Shown here: positions 1 through 9,177 of the stretch, in pieces | Numbering within the stretch: the stretch's first letter is position 1 | Layout of the letters: each line of letters begins with the position of its first letter | NCBI RefSeq assembly: GCF_039822205.1 | Contig: NZ_JBAGBW010000038.1 | Coordinates: forward strand, 1 to 10,161 | DNA length: 10,161 nt | Direction of reading: 5' to 3' | Source: Thermodesulfobium sp. 4217-1 | GTDB taxonomy: Bacteria; Thermodesulfobiota; Thermodesulfobiia; Thermodesulfobiales; Thermodesulfobiaceae | Notes under the pieces: generated by a model | Seen by the model: only the letters and a program-made list of their open reading frames with translations | What the model was told of the DNA's origin: nothing | The model's database searches: none | Made by a program: the position numbers and the translations under genes

Positions 1-102
1 CTTTTTGAACAAAATGACAAATATTACTATAAAAGATGGCTTTTGGATAACGTTTGGGTTTTTAGGGGTACGGTATTTTAGCTAAATTCAGGAGGTTTTT
101 GA

Positions 103-564
103 CGAAGATGGGTTAAGTTAAAAAATGGCTTTGTTTACCTTTGTGCAATAATAGATTGGAACACAAGAACAATACTCTCGCACAAGTTATCCAACTCAAT
201 AGATACAAAACTTGTTGTTGACACTTTAAACGATGCAATATCTGTTTATGGTAAACCAGGTGTCTTTAATGTTGATCAAGGTTCTCAATATACATCAGAT
301 GAGTTTATATCCATACTTCTTAAAACAGGTGTAGAAATATCTATGGATTCAAAAGGTAGGGCTTACGATAACATAATAATCGAAAGGTTTTGGAGAAGTC
401 TAAAATATGAAAATATTTATTTAATAAATTATTCAACCATAAGGGAGGCTAAAGATGGTATAAGAGAATACATTTACTTTTATAACTACAGAAGACCACA
501 TGCAAGTTTAGGTTATAAAACACCTATGAGCGTTTATATGGCTGGTTTGGAGGAGGCAGCCTAA
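103..564 (+). pseudogene. IS3-family transposase (OrfB) 3' fragment
   Basis: An open frame runs without stops from 103 to the TAA at 562-564, about 153 residues. It reads as the C-terminal part of an IS3-family OrfB (rve integrase core). Visible motifs are LKNGFVYLCAIIDW near the start, NVDQGSQYTS with the second catalytic Asp (codon 274-276), IIERFWRSLKYE with the catalytic Glu (codon 382-384), and the usual ending YNYRRPHASLGYKTP. Asp and Glu are separated by 35 residues, as in DD(35)E enzymes. The first catalytic Asp, normally in a TDITY motif just before LKNGF, is absent. The frame is closed by stops at 79-81 and 100-102, and no OrfA is seen. The element is therefore 5'-truncated and cannot encode active transposase. 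Confidence 0.9.
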
Positions 565-962: not shown

Positions 963-1874
963 ATGAACAAACTTTTAAGCGGTTTAATGATTGGCTCAAG
1001 CTTACTAATTCTTGCAACAGCAGCTAACGCAATGGACATCAAAGGCAAGATTGTAGACAGTGAGACGGCAGCGACACTGGCAGGCGCTACTGTGGACCTG
1101 AAAGACAGCTCTGGAAATGTTCTTCAGGAGGTAACCGCTGACAGCGCTGGTAGGTTTCTTTTTACAGGGGTTAACTCTGGAACTTATACAGTCGAGGTTA
1201 AAGAGACAGGATACGTTGGAATCGACAAAGCCGTATCTATCACTACCAAAAACAAAAACGTATCTATAAAGGCTATACCTTCCGTAGGAGGCACTGCAGC
1301 AGTTACAGGCAAAGTAGCTGATGGCTCTGGCAATGGAATAGGCGGCTTGGTAGTTCAGCTGATGAAAGAGGATCCACGCTTTGGCAGCTCGACAATGTCA
1401 AAATATGTAGTAGATCAGGCCACTACTGCGACAGACGGCACTTATGCGCTAAAGGCTATCAAGCCTGCTGACACATCTACGTATAACTACTATGTCAGAG
1501 TAAACGGCCACGGTATAAAGAATACATCTGCCACAGGACAGTTTAGCGTAACCAAAGACACTACAAATGTAGCAAATGAGAATGTGACTGTAGACGTACT
1601 GCCTACAACTACAGCCACTATCACGGGACAGGTTCTGGACGCAGTGGGCAATCCAGTGGCCAATGCAAAGGTTAGTGCACCGCTTAGAGAGACAGGATAT
1701 CCTGAAACCGTTACAAATGCAAACGGCGAGTTTAGCATAGTAGTGCCTGCAAACGGGATATTACAGGTACCTATCAGAGTGAGTAAATCAGGATACCAGT
1801 CAATAAGGGAGACGATAGTACCTAATGCAAATACGACATTCGCTCTTCAAACAATAAACCTAATCTCTAAATAG
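963..1874 (+). CDS. Secreted protein with three carboxypeptidase-regulatory/Cna-B-like repeats
   Basis: The 303-residue product begins with a signal peptide: a Lys at residue 3, a hydrophobic core of about residues 7-18, and probable cleavage after ANA (residue 23). The rest is three beta-sandwich repeats of the carboxypeptidase regulatory-like (CarboxypepD_reg/Cna-B-like) type. They start near residue 26 (IKGKIVDSETAATLAGATV), 114 (VTGKVADGSGNGIGGLVV) and 219 (ITGQVLDAVGNPVANAKV). Repeats 1 and 3 also show the G-x-F or G-x-Y turn followed by GxY-like strands. The ATG is preceded by GGGAGG at good spacing. No enzyme motif, sortase signal or anchor is visible, so a structural or surface role is likely. 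Base composition is clearly more G+C-rich than in the genes on either side, which may reflect high expression or separate origin. It could be a substrate of the downstream cluster, but that is inference from position only. Confidence 0.85.
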   Translation: MNKLLSGLMIGSSLLILATAANAMDIKGKIVDSETAATLAGATVDLKDSSGNVLQEVTADSAGRFLFTGVNSGTYTVEVKETGYVGIDKAVSITTKNKNVSIKAIPSVGGTAAVTGKVADGSGNGIGGLVVQLMKEDPRFGSSTMSKYVVDQATTATDGTYALKAIKPADTSTYNYYVRVNGHGIKNTSATGQFSVTKDTTNVANENVTVDVLPTTTATITGQVLDAVGNPVANAKVSAPLRETGYPETVTNANGEFSIVVPANGILQVPIRVSKSGYQSIRETIVPNANTTFALQTINLISK

Positions 1875-1883
1875 GGAGAAAAG

Positions 1884-1915
1884 CACAAGCCACTACTGCG
1901 CAGTAGTGGCTTGTG
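1884..1915. repeat. Perfect 32-bp palindrome after the secreted-protein gene
   Basis: CACAAGCCACTACTGC is followed with no spacer by its exact reverse complement. In RNA it would form a very stable hairpin, 9 bases after the stop codon. No T-run follows (the next bases are ACAATTAAG), so it is not a standard intrinsic terminator. It may be a processing or mRNA-stabilising hairpin, an attenuator between the upstream gene and the cluster, or a binding site for a dimeric protein. Confidence 0.85.
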
Positions 1916-1939: not shown

Positions 1940-2644
1940 TTGGGCACATTTTATTTCATTATAGACAACTCTGGCTTAGGAGAGAGATATCTAAAGTCCA
2001 TTATGAAAAACAGGTTCGGGGTATATATTGACAATCCTACCCCGCCAAGCACTTGTATAAAGCAGGTATTGAAAAATTTAAACGTTGAGACAAAGGGTTT
2101 AAACATATACGATTTTGCAGAAGAGCTAAAAAGTCTAAATCAGCCATTTTACATAAATCACGCAGAAAAGCTGACAGATAGCTTCGCGATATTCGTTCAA
2201 GCAATGCTTGAAAAAAATGATGTTTTTATCTGCTGTACGAGTCTGCCTACCGGGAAGATAATACCAAATTTTTTTAAGCACGGGAAAGAGATAAAGCTTT
2301 CCTACCAGAAAGAGAAGATTTTAAAATATATTGCGAAAAAGTATAAGATTTTACCCGATGAGGCAAACCACGTTTATACGCTTGCCTGCGGGAACCTAAA
2401 TGGCGCTGAAGAGTTAGCAAGGAGATTGTCTGATGGCGAGCCGCTGCACTCTTTAAGATACGACGGCGCAAACTATGTGTCCATAATTCCTATACTTCTT
2501 GGCTTTGGATTTATCTTCATAATGCTTAGATTTATAGCGCTTGGATTAAACGACGAGGATACCTATATCTTTGCTGGATCAATGGGCGCTATATTCTTCT
2601 TGTTTAGGTTTATCTACTATCAATATTTCAGGAAAATTATCTGA
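1940..2644 (+). CDS. AAA+-like pseudo-ATPase with C-terminal membrane anchor
   Basis: A TTG start at 1940 is chosen because AAGAAGGGAG ends 8 bases before it. The only longer option is a GTG at 1913 that lies inside the palindrome with no ribosome-binding site. The 234-residue product follows the order of an ExeA/ORC-type AAA+ domain. A strand and loop at residues 5-16 (FIIDNSGLGER) sit where a P-loop GxxGxGKT belongs. FYINHAEKL (70-78) sits where hhhhDEahxL belongs, VFICCTS (95-101) resembles sensor 1, and ACGNLNGAEELARRL (149-163) resembles the lid helix. The Walker A Lys-Thr and the Walker B Asp-Glu are all absent, so ATP hydrolysis is unlikely. Two hydrophobic segments (about 181-202 and 209-226) would anchor it in the inner membrane. 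No closer family is recognised. The AAA+ assignment is an inference from motif order. Confidence 0.65.
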   Translation: MGTFYFIIDNSGLGERYLKSIMKNRFGVYIDNPTPPSTCIKQVLKNLNVETKGLNIYDFAEELKSLNQPFYINHAEKLTDSFAIFVQAMLEKNDVFICCTSLPTGKIIPNFFKHGKEIKLSYQKEKILKYIAKKYKILPDEANHVYTLACGNLNGAEELARRLSDGEPLHSLRYDGANYVSIIPILLGFGFIFIMLRFIALGLNDEDTYIFAGSMGAIFFLFRFIYYQYFRKII

Positions 2645-2693
2645 CAATATGTGGATAACCTGTGGATAAGTTGTTGACAATATGTGGATTACT
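2639..2693. repeat. Five-unit 11-bp array containing two perfect DnaA boxes
   Basis: Five consecutive 11-bp units are visible: ATCTGACAATA, TGTGGATAACC, TGTGGATAAGT, TGTTGACAATA, TGTGGATTACT. Units 2 and 3 contain exact DnaA boxes in reverse orientation (TGTGGATAA at 2650-2658 and 2661-2669). Unit 5 has a one-mismatch box (2683-2691) and unit 4 a two-mismatch box. The array begins at the stop codon of the upstream gene and runs into the first codons of the next one. No replication initiator gene or other box cluster is in the window. Confidence 0.8.
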
Positions 2694-3755
2694 TTGCTAA
2701 TTTTTATATTTTTGTCTCTAAATAATATAGCTTATGCTGATATAACAAGCTTAGATATTACTAACAATAAAGCCAATATTAGCGCTGAAGATGATTTTAT
2801 GTCATATACAGTTGGAGATTGCTATATTCAGGCTGGACACTATCAAAGATATGCACAGGGCTTATCACTAAAAGAAAAAGAAAAGGGCTTTGAGTATTTC
2901 ACAGGCATGGTATACGAATATCCAGAAGAAGAAAAGAGGACATTATTCACTAAGCCAAAGGCAAAATATCTGACAAGATATTATTATGCAGTTGCGGACA
3001 ATTCAGAAGAGAACGGCATACACTACTACTATATAGATAGCACGGACAAAGAGAGAAAGAAAGAAAATATTATATTTGGAACCAGATATATTGCAGGCGA
3101 ATTAGAGACATCACTTGGAACTGAATTTGACAAGAACACGAAAGCTATCACAGGAAGCAGTATATATAACAAATTTGAGCACAGGAGATTTAAGCTTGAA
3201 AATTATTTCTCAACTGTAAATTCAGAGATTACACAAAAAAAGACATTGTTAATAAGCCAGAGCGTATATTTTAAGACAGTCAAATCTGACATATGCGCTA
3301 ACTTCAATAAAGGCTATCCAACATACCAGCTGTCAAGCTACAAAAAGTTATTTGATTTTAATATTAGGCACACGCTTGTAAAGTCAAACAAAGTGCAGTC
3401 TACATTTAGCTTAGATAGATACTTTGACATTGCAGATTTTAATAACTCTTTTTCACTTGTTTATCAGACCACAGGCAACTGTTCTATATCAGCTACAGTA
3501 GAGAAAGATTTAGAAGCTGATGAAGGCAAAAGTACAACTATTAGCCTTTATACAAATATAACAAGGCAAAATAAACACATAGAGCCTAATATTTATCTTT
3601 CAATCAACGATGAGAAAAAGCTTATAGGCATTTCTTATGAAGAAAAGAGCCTTACTGTGAAGGCAGGGGTCAGAATATTTAAGATTTCTAGTCAATCAGG
3701 ATTTTTAACGGCAAATATACAAAACAATAAATTATTTTTAGGTATAACTATATGA
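2682..3755 (+). CDS. Exported beta-rich protein, probable outer-membrane barrel
   Basis: The 357-residue product has a signal peptide (MWITLLIFIFLSLNNIAYA) with likely cleavage after residue 19. The mature part is rich in alternating hydrophobic/polar strands and Tyr/Phe, with turns every 10-15 residues. This is the pattern of an outer-membrane beta-barrel, and it ends in a strand-like NNKLFLGITI. The terminal residue is Ile, not the usual Phe or Trp, so barrel assignment is tentative. No family is recognised. The ATG at 2682 is the only in-frame start after the TAA at 2667, but it has no clear Shine-Dalgarno, only GGATAAG 12 bases upstream, inside a DnaA-box-like unit. Its end overlaps the next start by ATGA, so it should be co-translated with the TolC-like gene, consistent with a shared envelope role. 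Confidence 0.7.
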   Translation: MWITLLIFIFLSLNNIAYADITSLDITNNKANISAEDDFMSYTVGDCYIQAGHYQRYAQGLSLKEKEKGFEYFTGMVYEYPEEEKRTLFTKPKAKYLTRYYYAVADNSEENGIHYYYIDSTDKERKKENIIFGTRYIAGELETSLGTEFDKNTKAITGSSIYNKFEHRRFKLENYFSTVNSEITQKKTLLISQSVYFKTVKSDICANFNKGYPTYQLSSYKKLFDFNIRHTLVKSNKVQSTFSLDRYFDIADFNNSFSLVYQTTGNCSISATVEKDLEADEGKSTTISLYTNITRQNKHIEPNIYLSINDEKKLIGISYEEKSLTVKAGVRIFKISSQSGFLTANIQNNKLFLGITI

Positions 3756-4357
3756 AGTTAATCTTAGCTATATTGTTTTTATTTTTAGCCTACCATAAAG
3801 CCTGCGCAAATGAGATTGTGACGCTTGAGGACTATATAGCCAAGAACAATCAATACATCACAGCTCAGAACGACTACGATAAGGCCAAGATAAACCTTGA
3901 GATCCAAAAGAAAGAGTTGAAAAAAGCATCAGAGCCAGAGATACGCTATCACTCTGGATATGACCCAGCGAAAGGCTATGTTACATCAGGCTTATCGGTA
4001 TCAGGCAATATAACTGACATATTTTTAAATACCTCTACATACAAAGAAAAAGTGAAGCTTGCACAAATAGAGGTAAAGCAAAGAGAGGCTAATCTGAAAG
4101 ACGTAAGAAAGAAATTGGCCATTGAGTATAGCGCCAAGATAGCAGAAATAAAGAGGCTAAGAAACTTAATTGAAAATCTAAACGCACAACTAAAGCTAAA
4201 AGGGGCACAGGCGAAAATTATACGCGAAAGATATGACGCAGGGCTTATCACAAGAGATGAAGTAGAAAGAGTTAGCACAGAACTACTTGATATAAAAAGC
4301 AGGCTTGGAGAGACAGTTGATGAGTTGAAAATAAAAGAAATGGAGATGATTTTATGA
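3752..4357 (+). CDS. Half-length TolC-family outer-membrane efflux protein
   Basis: The 201-residue product has a signal peptide cleaved probably after ACA (residue 19). It then shows one complete TolC/OEP repeat: VTLEDYIAKNNQYITAQNDY, the usual opening helix; RYHSGYDPAKGYVTSGLSVS (about 65-84), a beta-hairpin-like stretch for the barrel; a long charged helix (about 100-155); and ERYDAGLITRDEVERVSTEL (about 158-177), the conserved second-helix motif. TolC proteins normally carry two such repeats in 400-500 residues and work as trimers. Here the second repeat is absent and the gene ends cleanly at a coupled start, so a truncation accident is not evident. A six-subunit ring is one way to rebuild the 12-stranded barrel. 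It starts by ATGA overlap with the upstream gene and ends by ATGA overlap with the adaptor gene. Confidence 0.75.
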   Translation: MKLILAILFLFLAYHKACANEIVTLEDYIAKNNQYITAQNDYDKAKINLEIQKKELKKASEPEIRYHSGYDPAKGYVTSGLSVSGNITDIFLNTSTYKEKVKLAQIEVKQREANLKDVRKKLAIEYSAKIAEIKRLRNLIENLNAQLKLKGAQAKIIRERYDAGLITRDEVERVSTELLDIKSRLGETVDELKIKEMEMIL

Positions 4358-6003
4358 GCGTCTACTCTCATATAGCTTTTTCGCTATTATTTATCCAGCT
4401 GGTCAGGATACTATTGCCATACGACATAAGGATAGACGTATTTTTTTATTTTTTGGCAGTATTTGGCAGCTTGGCAGGCTCAGCTCCTGAGATACTTTTC
4501 AAAATCAGAAAATCCTCAACCTTTAATATATTTAATAGGCTTACTTTTAGCCGAAACGAAGTAATAGACTTTGCAAACTCAATATTGTGTTATCTGATTT
4601 ACTCGGTAGCAATAAACGCAGTCTTTTATGTATTTAAATTTAACGCTATATACCTACTCAGTTTAGAGCAAGGATATATTTCTCATTTGATGTTGGAGAG
4701 CTTTTCTGTCAAAGGGGTGAGATTGTTTTATCCAGCATTTATAAGATTTTCACTTATCACGAAAAAAGATGCGGTATTTAGAGGATTTATCAGGGGGAGC
4801 AAGTCTGAGAGAATATTAGCCTGTATATTTTTTATTTTCTTTCTCATCTGCCTGCCGACAGACAGCTACAAAAAAATAATCCACTCTATCATACAGAACC
4901 CTGTAGGCGCACTGTCGGACGTGAAATATGAAGCATCAGAAAAAGAAACAATCGTTTACGTAAAAGGCATACACAACGTTACGCACGAAAAGATTGATAA
5001 AAAATTTAAGGCTATTGGCTGGCTTGGCGCAAACTCAGTAGTGGTAGAAGATCCAGAGACTGGCTATCTTTATAGCGTAGGCAAGGGCTTAACTGATAAC
5101 ATACAGCCGTTTTCAATGGAAGAAAAAACAGGAGAAAATATCTTGATATCAAATAAGAATATAAGCGTTTACAGGACGAATATAAAGAAGATAATTTCAG
5201 ACATTGAGAGTAGCATAAAAGACCCTGATACAAGGGTATTTATCACAGGCGACATCTACACAGACGACGAAAACTATCATATAGCATCATATCCGACAGA
5301 GTACAACCCTATAAAACTTATCCAGAAGTGTATAAACTTGCAATTTGCAAGGCTGGAGGACTTGGACAGGCTAAAGAATACTCACATAACCAGCGGCAAG
5401 CTTGTAATCAGATATGAGAAAAAGATATATAAGAATGCAGCGCATAGCGCAGAGCTTCAATACAATCCAGGGGTAAAAAGCTATGCTGAGAAAAATATTT
5501 CAGACGATCTTAATAAAATCAAAATCAGCTTCAATGCAATGGACATTTCAGATATAAAGGTCAAAGTTGGCCAGAAGGTTAGAATTGGCGATGTTTTGGC
5601 CATATCATCGAAAGAGCAGGACGCTTTAAATTTAGAAAATGAAAAGAATATCATAGATTATGCCAAGCTTGAAGGCTCTATATCAAAGATACAGGCAGGC
5701 TACAAGGAAAAGCTTGAGAGCAAATATAAAGAACTTGAATTAAATAAAAGGCTTTATTCAGAAGGCTTAATCTCTGAACAGGCAGTAAAAAATATAGAGA
5801 GTGATATAGCATTTCTGAAGACAAACGAAGAACTTGAGATTGCAAGCGTTCAGTCTGAACAGGCTAAATTAAGCGCGCAGATTGAAAATAACAATAAGCA
5901 CATATCAAGGCTTGAGATAAAATCTCCAGTAGACGGAGAAGTGTCAAATGTCAGTATAAATTACAATGCAGGAGTGATAAGTGGGAGTTTGAGTATTGAA
6001 TAA
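4354..6003 (+). CDS. YdjM-like membrane domain fused to an HlyD-like periplasmic adaptor
   Basis: The 549-residue fusion has three parts. Residues 1-170 hold several membrane helices and match the YdjM/PF04307 layout: SHIAFS at the start, GSLAGSAPEILFKI where GsxxPDiDHP is usual, and GYISHLMLESFSVKGVRLFY (107-126), closely resembling the family's GxxxHLxxDsfTxxG motif. The HRGxTHS motif is not present (FSRNEVIDFANS instead), so hydrolase activity is doubtful. Residues 190-355 form an unassigned soluble domain. Residues about 390-549 are a membrane-fusion-protein hairpin: a half lipoyl domain (ISDIKVKVGQKVRIGDVLA), a coiled coil including LNKRLYSEGLISEQAVKN, and the second half lipoyl motif LEIKSPVDGEVSNV. 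The protein stops just after that, without the beta-barrel domain. The start follows GGAG by 8 bases and overlaps the previous stop. It is probably the inner-membrane and periplasmic bridge to the TolC-like protein. Confidence 0.75.
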   Translation: MSVYSHIAFSLLFIQLVRILLPYDIRIDVFFYFLAVFGSLAGSAPEILFKIRKSSTFNIFNRLTFSRNEVIDFANSILCYLIYSVAINAVFYVFKFNAIYLLSLEQGYISHLMLESFSVKGVRLFYPAFIRFSLITKKDAVFRGFIRGSKSERILACIFFIFFLICLPTDSYKKIIHSIIQNPVGALSDVKYEASEKETIVYVKGIHNVTHEKIDKKFKAIGWLGANSVVVEDPETGYLYSVGKGLTDNIQPFSMEEKTGENILISNKNISVYRTNIKKIISDIESSIKDPDTRVFITGDIYTDDENYHIASYPTEYNPIKLIQKCINLQFARLEDLDRLKNTHITSGKLVIRYEKKIYKNAAHSAELQYNPGVKSYAEKNISDDLNKIKISFNAMDISDIKVKVGQKVRIGDVLAISSKEQDALNLENEKNIIDYAKLEGSISKIQAGYKEKLESKYKELELNKRLYSEGLISEQAVKNIESDIAFLKTNEELEIASVQSEQAKLSAQIENNNKHISRLEIKSPVDGEVSNVSINYNAGVISGSLSIE

Positions 6004-6037: not shown

Positions 6038-6289
6038 TTACGAATGAGACCCAATATCAATCAATCGTAACTCATCATCTAATAATTGGTATATTAGCAA
6101 TAAATCCGGCTTTAAATGACATTCTTTTAAGTTTGAAAAATTGCCAACTAAAGCATGGTCTTTGAATTTTTTCTCTAAAGGCTGATTTTTTAGTAACTTA
6201 TCTACAACATATACAAATATTTTGTCGCAATCTAAATTAACTCTTTGCAAATAGTGTTTTTTAAAGTTTCTGGTTTTTGAAAGTTTAAT
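6038..6289 (-). pseudogene. yafQ: YafQ-like mRNA interferase toxin with damaged ends
   Basis: The frame reads as a YafQ/RelE-superfamily ribosome-dependent mRNA endonuclease of about 83 residues. Motifs are KTRNFKKHY at the start, LEKKFKDHALVGNF (38-51), KECHLKPDLLLIY (55-67) and GSHS at the end. The His, His, Asp and His used in catalysis by E. coli YafQ are present. Two things are wrong. First, no ATG, GTG or TTG lies at the expected start; the codon 7 bases after GAGGT is ATT (6287-6289), and the first TTG (6250) would delete the first helix. Second, a TAA follows GSHS directly, yet the next codons read I-F-K-stop, as if GSHSxIF had lost one sense codon. This removes the terminal catalytic Phe. 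ATT initiation is possible, but the toxin is probably inactive or weak. Confidence 0.75.
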
Positions 6290-6293
6290 ATCG

Positions 6294-6544
6294 CTAACCT
6301 CTAATATCTTTCATGAGTTCTTCTGTATCTTTATGGTAGGTTACGTCAGACTCTTGAGATTGTTTGATAGATTTTTGTGTTTCTTCCTGAAACATTTCTA
6401 AATCAAAGGGGAGCTTTTTATCCATGGCCAACTTGCTCAAAAACATATTTATACCATCGCTTAATGTAAGACTGTAGCGTTTAAAAAATTCTTTACGAAC
6501 TCTTTATTGTCTTTGTCAATTCTAATACTAGTGGTTATCCTCAT
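6294..6544 (-). pseudogene. RelB/DinJ-like antitoxin with a -1 frame break at a slippery site
   Basis: ATG at 6544 follows GAGAGG. The first frame gives MRITTSIRIDKDNKEFVKNF, the N-terminal ribbon of a RelB/DinJ ribbon-helix-helix antitoxin, and stops at a TAA (6461-6463) after 27 residues. In the -1 frame the protein continues as RYSLTLSDGINMFLSKLAMD and then KKLPFDLEMF, the typical second half, to TAG at 6294-6296. The switch coincides with T TTA AAC (minus strand, 6485-6479), in the phase used for -1 programmed frameshifting, with TTA as codon 21. A one-base loss from the T-run explains it equally well. The stop lies 4 bases before the toxin's apparent ATT start, the usual antitoxin-toxin order. 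Confidence 0.75.
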
Positions 6545-6640: not shown

Positions 6641-6839
6641 CTACTCTATTCTAAGTCCCGATTGCTTAATAATGCTACTTAATGTTCCTTTTTTCAGCTC
6701 TTTTGAATGAATTGGTACAGTTACTCGTAATTCACCTCTTTTAAAGCTTACTACTCCCCTTTTGCCTCGGCTCCAAAAAGACAGATTTCAGAAGTTCTTT
6801 AATTACTTCATCACTTCTAAGATTTGCTAGCTTTTTCAG
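6641..6839 (-). pseudogene. hicA: hicA toxin, frameshifted
   Basis: Directly downstream of hicB and overlapping its stop, one frame reads LKKLANLRSDEVIKELLKSV followed by FLEPRQKGSSKL and then TAA (6741-6743). A second frame takes over with SFKRGELRVTVPIHSKELKK and GTLSSIIKQSGLRIE to the TAG at 6641-6643. Together they are a HicA mRNA interferase (a small dsRBD-like protein). The break lies around 6745-6757, just at the active-site motif, where the usual GSH reads GSS, so the catalytic His is lost as well. There is no normal start codon in the first frame. The toxin should be dead, leaving an orphan antitoxin. Confidence 0.8.
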
Positions 6840-7066
6840 ACAATCACTTCCTCTACTATACTTTTATCTTCAGGAATTGGGAGCTTATCTTCTGTAGGAC
6901 TTTCAAGATAAAGCTCTTGCGCTTCCTTTGTATTCTGAAGCACTTCTTTAAAAGTCTCGCCCTCAGAAATGCATCCAGGAAGAGCTGGAACGACTGCAGT
7001 ATACCCACCCTCTTCTTGAGATTCCAATATGACTTTATAATGGTTCACTTTATCAATATTATGCAC
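6836..7066 (-). CDS. hicB: HicB-family antitoxin, orphaned
   Basis: The 76-residue product is a short HicB: NHYKVILESQEEGGYTAVVP followed by ALPGCISEGETFKEVLQNTK, the family's partial RNase-H-like fold with its conserved LPGCxSEG motif. A C-terminal SPTEDKLPIPEDKSIVEEVIV-type tail lies where this subgroup ends without a separate DNA-binding domain. The start is GTG at 7066, which gives the family's usual MHNIxKVNHYK opening. The ribosome-binding site is poor (AAAAGG immediately before it), suggesting translation coupled to upstream genes. Here hicB precedes hicA, the reverse of the commonest order but frequent in this subgroup. Since hicA is broken, it has no active partner nearby. Confidence 0.88.
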   Translation of the reverse strand: MHNIDKVNHYKVILESQEEGGYTAVVPALPGCISEGETFKEVLQNTKEAQELYLESPTEDKLPIPEDKSIVEEVIV

Positions 7067-7383: not shown

Positions 7384-8046
7384 CTATGCGAGCAATTTTA
7401 AAAATTCCTTTAAACCGTCTAATGCAGAATCTTCAAAGTTCCAGATCTTCTTTTTTAGTGAATTTTCATTATTACAATTTTTACCTGCTCGTTTCTTTTC
7501 TTCCTCAGTACAGCAATCGTAACGAAAATAAATCTGAATCCAAAACTTATTAAACTCTTTATCTTTAATCTCTTTTCTAAAATTTTTAACACATTCCCGC
7601 CAGGATTCTAAACAATCTGCAAAAGTTGAATCTTCAGATTTAATTGTTTTTAGAAGCGTCTCAAGCTCACCGTAACCATTAACATTGATAATATAACAAA
7701 TAAAATCGACATCAAGTTCTTGGCTATGTTTAAGCTCATTTATCCGGGTAAAAGAAACATCAGAACATATTTCCTTCATTGCACCATTAATAAGATTAAT
7801 GCGATTTTCAATTCCATCCCTATCAGCATCTATAAGTATACCAACCCTTTTCAGCCCTTTAGACCCGATCTCCTTTTTTAAATCTTTTAATCGGCTGGAA
7901 AGATTACCTAAACCACCCAGACACTCGTAATCATCAATATTACATATTGGAGATCCTACTTTTACATTAAGTTTTAAATATTCAATCAGCCCTTCAATAA
8001 AATACTGATCGTTGACACTTTCTACAATAAGAAGACTTTTACTCAC
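7384..8046 (-). CDS. DUF3226/TOPRIM-type nuclease-like protein of a defence pair
   Basis: The 220-residue product has TOPRIM signatures: LLIVESVND near the start with the conserved Glu (E9), and GILIDADRDG (69-78) with the DxD pair D73/D75, followed by a helical C-terminal half. This is the layout of DUF3226 and relatives such as the OLD-family and AriB/DUF4435 nucleases, where the acidic residues bind metal. It starts at GTG (8046) and overlaps the end of the ATPase gene by 8 bp, so it is translated from the same message. The pairing of an AAA15-type ATPase with a TOPRIM protein resembles PARIS (AriA/AriB) and AbiL-type abortive-infection systems. Role in phage sensing and nuclease or toxic action is inferred from these. 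Confidence 0.8.
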   Translation of the reverse strand: MSKSLLIVESVNDQYFIEGLIEYLKLNVKVGSPICNIDDYECLGGLGNLSSRLKDLKKEIGSKGLKRVGILIDADRDGIENRINLINGAMKEICSDVSFTRINELKHSQELDVDFICYIINVNGYGELETLLKTIKSEDSTFADCLESWRECVKNFRKEIKDKEFNKFWIQIYFRYDCCTEEEKKRAGKNCNNENSLKKKIWNFEDSALDGLKEFLKLLA

Positions 8047-9136
8047 CGCGGATTTTAGCCTCGTGAGTTAAAGAATATCTAAGCTGATTATAATCGCGTT
8101 TCATAACAGAAATAATATTTTTCTTCTGATCTCGATAAAGTTCCAGATAAACCCCTTCATTTTCTTGATTTGCTTCGTTAAAAGCTTCGATACACTCTTT
8201 TGAATGAGTGGTAGCGAAAATCTGACAATTTGCTTTCTTAGATGTTTCAAATATGATTTTCCATAATCTTTGATAATTGGTATAATGAATGCCATTTTCA
8301 AACTCATCTATGAGAAGATATCCATCCTGGCTTGCCCATATTGCGCAAAGAATCGCAATATATCGATTGATACCCTCACCAAATGATGAAAGAGAAATTA
8401 AAGAGTCATTATTTTTAAGCTTTAACTTGAAAGTAGTACCATCTCTACCAGAAATGGCTTTTACTTTCAAGATATTTTCATCAAATTCGTTTATAAGGCG
8501 ATCGATTTCTTCTTCTTTGTCTAGTTCGTTTACTTTCCCATAAAATTCTGTTAACAGCGTTTCATCAGTCGAACACGATGAAATAAAATTAACATTAGTT
8601 GAAGTATGCCTAATATCCCGAATAATAACAACTGGATTAATAATATCTTGCACTGGAGTAGCAAGAGTTTCATTATTATATGAAAACTGTACAAATAGAG
8701 CTGGAGCTATTTTTGGTTGATTTGTAGGAAATGTTTGTAAAATTTGATAACCAGTCGGACTAAAAGAATTGGAAAGAGATTGAATGCTTTGAGATTCTAT
8801 CATTTCACCAGCAGGGATAAATTTTATCTTAATTTCAGATGTATCATCTTTAATAATAATTTCTTTACCTGAACTATTAAATAAATCAAACTCAAATTCT
8901 TTATAAGATTGTGTTTGTGGCATAAAACCTGGTTTTAGCTGCCTTCTTCGAAGGATTTCAGATGTAACAATACGCATACCAAAACCAGACCTTGGCTTAG
9001 CCAAAAGCTCAATCCCTTCTAAAAAAGCAGTCTTTCCAATATTATTTTTGCCGCCAATAAGATTAACTCTTTGTAACTTTTCTACGCTAAGTCTTTCAAA
9101 ACACTTAAAATTTTCAAATTCGATATTCTCAATCAT
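8039..9136 (-). CDS. AAA15-family (SMC/OLD-like) ATPase of a defence pair
   Basis: Start at the ATG 9136 gives MIENIEFENFKCFERL, the usual family opening. A further ATG at 9148 adds MCEI but has no ribosome-binding site. The 365 residues contain Walker A GGKNNIGKT (28-36, Lys35), an ABC-like signature SLSSFGEGINRY (248-259), Walker B YLLIDEFENGIH (273-284, Asp277/Glu278), and a switch His in IFATTHSKE (306-314). The sequence between holds the insert typical of AAA15/AAA21 proteins. All catalytic residues are intact. It should be a soluble ATPase that forms a complex with, and restrains or activates, the TOPRIM protein downstream. The fold is shared with OLD, AriA and AbiL ATPases. Subfamily assignment cannot be settled by eye. 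Confidence 0.87.
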   Translation of the reverse strand: MIENIEFENFKCFERLSVEKLQRVNLIGGKNNIGKTAFLEGIELLAKPRSGFGMRIVTSEILRRRQLKPGFMPQTQSYKEFEFDLFNSSGKEIIIKDDTSEIKIKFIPAGEMIESQSIQSLSNSFSPTGYQILQTFPTNQPKIAPALFVQFSYNNETLATPVQDIINPVVIIRDIRHTSTNVNFISSCSTDETLLTEFYGKVNELDKEEEIDRLINEFDENILKVKAISGRDGTTFKLKLKNNDSLISLSSFGEGINRYIAILCAIWASQDGYLLIDEFENGIHYTNYQRLWKIIFETSKKANCQIFATTHSKECIEAFNEANQENEGVYLELYRDQKKNIISVMKRDYNQLRYSLTHEAKIRGE

Positions 9137-9177
9137 AATCTCACACATCCCATTTTGTTATAAACAAGTCTATCGTA

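Follow-up and report, generated by a model that had tools for sequence, protein, structure and literature searches.

In tripartite efflux systems the energised component is a transporter of the ATP-binding cassette (ABC), resistance-nodulation-division (RND) or major facilitator superfamily (MFS) type, and the outer-membrane factor is typically organised as two internal repeats (review PMC8277102). The subject of this report is a four-gene plus-strand operon of Thermodesulfobium sp. 4217-1 (positions 1940-6003; Table 1) that encodes adaptor and channel parts related to those of such systems. It lies in the window, by which is meant the entire 10,161-nucleotide stretch of DNA that was analysed, contig 38 in a draft genome of 2.0 Mb, and this copy of the operon is chromosomal. 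With no energised transporter among its products and a single repeat in its channel protein, the operon is not, by its membership, a tripartite pump or a type I secretion system. On the evidence of sequence comparison, it is a member of a set of genes built around an AAA ATPase and a YdjM-type protein and carried on plasmids, and represents a branch of that set in which the motifs of both proteins are dead. An earlier note on this DNA had delimited the four genes, with a 37 bp gap followed by two ATGA overlaps, and its coordinates are all correct. Plasmid ancestry, a VirD4/HerA-like partner and the death of both likely enzymes are points that it did not contain.

The operon and its products

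The first gene starts with TTG at position 1940, a choice supported by the ATG that occupies the matching position in a relative (locus L009). Its product has no significant Pfam match. It is, as the earlier note had it, a membrane-anchored pseudo-ATPase: BLASTP aligns it (E=6e-9) with an intact AAA ATPase of a Stanieria plasmid, the match extending through a similar C-terminal membrane region, and a profile of that region scores it at E=5.7e-30 (the window sequence itself being part of the profile). In the alignment, Walker A is missing from this protein and from both its orthologues in the genus. Elsewhere the motif is kept in all complete relatives checked except that of Picosynechococcus plasmid pAQ5 (the form found in pSYSX, SGEGMGKT, was scored as intact by eye). 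Both lineages without a P-loop are also without a detected VirD4-like gene; for the window's own genome this means no match to the VirD4-like ATPase in a search that had no positive control.

The second product, of 357 amino acids, matches no Pfam, NCBIfam or PADLOC family significantly. Its orthologues in the genus are 84% and 74% identical, and among the loci compared it is confined to that genus. The N-terminus is signal-peptide-like and the sequence is rich in strands; the protein is probably an outer-membrane beta-barrel. Its earlier assignment to the outer membrane remains provisional: the single-sequence AlphaFold2 (AF2) model is uninformative (predicted local distance difference test, pLDDT, 33) and the beta-amphipathicity is borderline (30/500 shuffles).

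The third gene does encode a half-length TolC, with one outer membrane efflux protein (OEP) repeat (PF02321, E=1.4e-12) in 201 amino acids. It aligns with half-TolCs of Thermus and Cyanobacteria, and a sequence search of the half-TolC profile against solved structures gave a chance-level match only. Three full-length TolCs are encoded elsewhere in the genome. A TolC of one repeat would offer a present-day model of the channel prior to internal duplication.

The fourth gene (4354-6003, plus strand) encodes a 549-residue protein whose designation as a YdjM-HlyD fusion is upheld on both sides of the junction. The YdjM part matches PF04307 at E=1.2e-6, just under the family cut-off, and residues 90-356 match a YdjM-type "metal-dependent hydrolase" of a Stanieria plasmid. 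BLASTP against an intact plasmid YdjM protein bears this out (E=1e-18, with the match extending to residue 356). The YdjM motifs DxD and HRxxTHS are conserved in relatives and absent from the window fusion in the alignments, which agrees with the earlier description of an eroded domain in the place of a pump. By sequence the HlyD part is weakly matched (RND_mfp at 6.5e-6, with lipoyl traces). The AF2 model of the fusion (15 sequences, mean pLDDT 73.5) has membrane helices in the YdjM part, a beta-rich domain at residues 197-357 (pLDDT mostly 76-90) and a lipoyl/hairpin part (pLDDT ~91-96 over most of the hairpin); the best matches of the adaptor model in the PDB by Foldseek are MacA, EmrA and HlyD. 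Sequence searches found no match to the YdjM protein among solved structures, no relatives of the YdjM alignment among viral contigs and no match to the fusion among phage records. Residues 170-262 (window 4861-5139) superimpose on a TrmB sugar-binding domain (VIA-align Z 10.9, rmsd (root-mean-square deviation) 2.2 over 85 residues); this likeness of the periplasmic part may be merely a common arrangement. The reported absence of an ABC, RND or MFS pump is confirmed for the operon (Pfam) and for the flanks of two orthologous loci, where the frames were read.

The fusion is present in 3/4 genomes of the genus, the two relatives being 81% and 78% identical to it. Both relatives (loci L008 and L009) keep an identical gene order, from the secreted beta-sandwich gene immediately upstream of the operon through the fusion. 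All reading frames are open in the three species, and each of the five genes, the upstream gene included, has a ratio of nonsynonymous to synonymous substitution rates (dN/dS) in the range 0.085-0.19. That range places the five-gene set under purifying selection despite dead-looking enzymes: the ATPase and the YdjM protein of the window lineage look catalytically dead, as judged from motifs that nearly all relatives keep.

Plasmid-borne relatives

On the Stanieria plasmid the AAA ATPase gene is directly upstream of the YdjM-type gene, with an ATGA overlap. This linkage, together with homology to the window proteins, implies that two of the four operon genes descend from a co-travelling pair. 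The same pair is found on plasmids of Cyanobacteria, Thermus, Gammaproteobacteria (Allochromatium, Nitrosococcus) and Desulfocapsa; some contigs from Chromatiales and Methylococcales also have it. On most cyanobacterial plasmids it is followed by a VirD4/HerA-like ATPase (which passes the TrwB_AAD_bind, DUF87 and HerA_C cut-offs), a lipoyl/coiled-coil adaptor and a half-TolC. The ATPase was found on 43 plasmids, the VirD4-like protein (at >=38% identity) on 28 and the half-TolC on 25, with 28/28 and 25/25 within the 43, counts that overstate independence because near-identical plasmids of related strains are included. Nearly all of these genes lie within 10-15 kb of each other, except in circular records whose cut happens to separate the genes. 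Sets are located near ParA/ParB genes on some plasmids, and 41/43 of the ATPase-bearing plasmids are typed as non-mobilizable.

Thermus plasmids and contigs carry a YdjM-HlyD fusion as in the window, together with a half-TolC and the ATPase. The tree is compatible with a single origin of the fusion, but its support is negligible (35/10). The possibility that the four window genes never occur together elsewhere, on which the earlier note had staked its proposal, can be set aside, with sets recurring on Thermus and cyanobacterial plasmids. On plasmids of Bacteroidota a tyrosine recombinase and the ATPase form one fused protein, with a YdjM gene adjoining or near (L020 48-1637, L024 9646-11250); the ATPase profile had matched proteins annotated as integrases, an apparent error that the alignment showed to be a real fusion. 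In a sample of 386 genomes, for the most part a single genome from each family, the profile of the ATPase membrane region detected the three of the genus, one complete set of the cyanobacterial type (G194), a fragment interrupted by a stop and a further case that is doubtful. The set is rare and mostly plasmid-borne. Its distribution implies a core that consists of the ATPase and the YdjM-type protein, to which the adaptor and the half-TolC are added in Cyanobacteria, Thermus and the window, and the VirD4-like ATPase in Cyanobacteria.

Several members of the set have individual peculiarities. Two VirD4/HerA-like ATPases (L007 13917-15377, L031 3729-5147) contain a GIY-YIG-like insertion that is absent from their relatives. 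On Synechocystis pSYSM (L023 8581-9543) a single frame combines the beginning of the ATPase, a piece of YdjM and the tail of the half-TolC; it looks like a fossil set left behind by internal deletions. Cyanobacterial adaptors (L016 11133-12731, L031 2185-3732, L007 15371-17008) have an N-terminal region, probably cytoplasmic, with a conserved TGxGCSRKLISxWK stretch that looks like a DNA-binding helix-turn-helix.

A putative DnaA-box array within the operon

Four DnaA-box-like repeats lie between the first two operon genes in a layout that matches that of oriC, between dnaA and dnaN. In the window's genome such arrays occur at these two places only, and control patterns gave none. Two relatives have arrays at oriC and twice at the operon locus (Table 1), and in the operon-less genome G002 a single array, with the oriC layout, is left. 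The simplest reading of these putative boxes would be control of the operon by DnaA, or titration of DnaA. That the array is left over from a plasmid origin was also considered and is unsupported, no such cluster being present in the homologous plasmid loci examined.

Proposed origin and function

On balance the operon is probably a domesticated and catalytically dead chromosomal derivative of a plasmid-borne, pump-less, envelope-spanning machine, the likeliest ancestral cargo of which would be plasmid DNA. In the plasmid forms the membrane-anchored AAA ATPase and the YdjM-type protein with its periplasmic domain would constitute an inner-membrane platform, joined in Cyanobacteria by the VirD4/HerA-like ATPase; the lipoyl/alpha-hairpin adaptor and the single-repeat TolC, probably hexameric, would form a tube across periplasm and outer membrane. 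Arranged as ATPase, YdjM, periplasmic domain, adaptor hairpin and single-repeat TolC, the parts can be thought of as a conduit from the cytoplasm to the outside, with YdjM at the pump position. DNA is suggested as the cargo because a translocase-like ATPase and par genes accompany the set in Cyanobacteria and a recombinase is fused to the ATPase in Bacteroidota. In the window's genus, the P-loop and the YdjM metal motifs have been lost, no VirD4-like protein was detected, and the strand-rich, probably outer-membrane protein would have been added. Selection has retained the conduit, which would most likely let a polymer or surface protein pass, either passively or with energy from some other source; the box array may link it to DnaA.

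Several observations weigh against this proposal. The complete Thermus plasmid lacks a VirD4-like gene, and the Nitrosococcus and Desulfocapsa plasmids carry the ATPase-YdjM pair alone, so that neither the envelope parts nor the translocase is universal. The fourth genome of the genus, G002, has only a broken remnant of the operon, and the homologous plasmid loci showed no DnaA-box arrays. A more far-reaching version, in which the plasmid sets make up an undescribed class of envelope-spanning DNA transporter (a VirD4/HerA-like motor, the AAA ATPase, a YdjM-type channel or nuclease of the inner membrane, the lipoyl-hairpin adaptor and a hexameric single-repeat TolC) and the window records chromosomal capture, loss of the motors and a DnaA-box link to replication control, is put forward tentatively, as a rather doubtful whole.

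The main rival to a conduit is a static bridge, in which the dead operon would make an envelope tether or surface complex that links inner and outer membranes or displays the beta-sandwich neighbour. The lost Walker A and YdjM motifs, the lack of a VirD4-like match (in the search made without positive control) and the purifying selection on all five genes would all suit such a structure; however, the TolC-type repeat, like the adaptor hairpin, is a component of channels, and the ATPase motifs are kept in nearly all plasmid relatives. A mere tether is held to be unlikely. An ordinary tripartite efflux or type I system that borrows an ABC, RND or MFS pump encoded elsewhere, with YdjM as a mere membrane anchor, would account for the MacA/EmrA/HlyD-like adaptor fold, the OEP match of the half-TolC and the other TolC loci of the genome. 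Yet across phyla the adaptor is fused or linked to YdjM and the AAA ATPase and not to a pump, the TolC is single-repeat, and the conserved periplasmic domain of the fusion belongs with the YdjM-type protein and not with adaptors; a borrowed pump is held to be distinctly improbable.

The plasmid family might alternatively serve defence or exclusion, with a STAND-like ATPase as sensor and YdjM as a phospholipase- or nuclease-like membrane effector, the window being a relic of it. In its favour, AAA_22 and nSTAND3 both score against the plasmid ATPase, and there is a weak zinc-dependent phospholipase C score for one YdjM protein. Against this, PADLOC models gave only weak P-loop matches, the pairs accompany par and integrase genes, and we know of no role for adaptor and TolC parts in defence systems; the explanation is very unlikely. 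That the operon is a decaying relic without function would fit its dead motifs and the broken fragment that is all G002 retains, but it is hardly credible for frames that are open in three species with dN/dS of 0.085-0.19 for every gene.

If the plasmid set of the favoured proposal does move DNA, an unsought, TolC-type transfer route would be open to many plasmids of Cyanobacteria and Thermus that are typed as non-mobilizable. Synechocystis PCC 6803, with half-TolC, adaptor, VirD4-like and ATPase genes on its plasmid pSYSX, is among the model strains with the set, which makes this readily testable. The window, for its part, would be a natural experiment in what stays useful once both enzymes of the machine are dead.

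Neighbouring features

The earlier note regarded the secreted beta-sandwich repeat protein encoded just upstream as a plausible cargo or surface partner. The gene has orthologues at the matching place in L008 and L009 (dN/dS 0.085-0.11), and its synteny in three genomes leaves it a possible candidate for either role. The suggestion is weakened by a conserved terminator-like hairpin between the gene and the operon, retained in three species with some paired changes; in two of them it has a T-run and so resembles a terminator.

Table 1. Features of the locus and of related loci (window coordinates unless a locus is named)
Feature	Position	Strand	Remarks
Secreted carboxypeptidase-regulatory-like beta-sandwich repeat protein	963-1874	+	303 amino acids; PF13620, E=2e-27; signal-peptide-like N-terminus
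Perfect 16+16 bp inverted repeat (32 bp palindrome)	1884-1915	+	Terminator- or attenuator-like hairpin between upstream gene and operon
Pseudo-ATPase gene	1940-2644	+	234 amino acids; AAA-type remnant without Walker A, conserved C-terminal membrane region
Four DnaA-box-like repeats (TGTGGATAA)	2650-2691	+	Exact 11 bp register; 0, 0, 2 and 1 mismatches
Gene for 357-amino-acid protein	2682-3755	+	Signal-peptide-bearing, strand-rich; probable outer-membrane beta-barrel
Half-length TolC-type gene	3752-4357	+	201 amino acids, single OEP repeat
YdjM-type membrane domain of fusion	4354-4872	+	~Residues 1-173; DxD and HRxxTHS lost
Periplasmic beta domain of fusion	4936-5424	+	Residues 195-357; common to plasmid YdjM-type proteins
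HlyD/MacA-type adaptor of fusion	5506-6000	+	Split lipoyl domain, long alpha-hairpin (residues 419-520)
DnaA-box-like arrays of a relative, L008	12624-12654, ~17362-17403		11 bp register
DnaA-box-like arrays of a relative, L009	11935-11976, ~16697-16738		11 bp register

The surroundings of the operon include further elements. By eye, window 1-564, where the contig starts, resembles the 3' portion of an IS3-type transposase gene, and small minus-strand frames at 6038-6446 and 6836-7066 resemble a RelE-type toxin together with its antitoxin, and a HicB-type antitoxin. A GGDEF/EAL gene lies upstream in genomes G001 and G003 and has no close orthologue in the window's genome. An AAA_15 ATPase and a DUF3226/TOPRIM-like partner (window 7384-9148, minus strand; L008 2507-4301), matched by the PADLOC candidates PDC-M38A and PDC-M38B and by AbiLi models, probably form a defence pair; in two genomes it lies close to the operon.

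Comparison with known systems

With tripartite efflux and type I secretion systems (MacAB-TolC, EmrAB-TolC, HlyBD-TolC) the operon has in common the lipoyl and alpha-hairpin adaptor and the TolC-type repeat. It differs from them in having no ABC, RND or MFS transporter, one TolC repeat in place of two, and an adaptor that is fused to a YdjM-type protein. The likeness to type IV secretion and conjugation (VirD4/TrwB, HerA) resides in the VirD4/HerA-like ATPase of the cyanobacterial plasmid relatives; no relaxase or VirB-type parts are annotated in the plasmid regions read, and no search was aimed at them. At its N-terminal domain the fusion can be aligned with YdjM hydrolases (PF04307), from which the protein is set apart by an extra conserved periplasmic domain, by loss of the metal motifs in the window and by fusion to an adaptor in the window and in Thermus.

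Thermus pL4C, with an ATP-binding protein, a TolC family protein and a 544-residue metal-dependent hydrolase, presents matching families, the fusion and a half-length TolC. In contrast with the window, its genes are plasmid-borne, P-loop and YdjM motifs are intact, small extra genes are present and the strand-rich 357-residue protein is absent. No description of the set was found in the open-access literature; its newness lies in gene composition. Compared with the plasmid ATPase-YdjM set as a whole, the window has the ATPase with its membrane region, YdjM with its periplasmic domain, and the linked adaptor and half-TolC; what it does not share is the intact Walker A and the YdjM DxD and HRxxTHS motifs.

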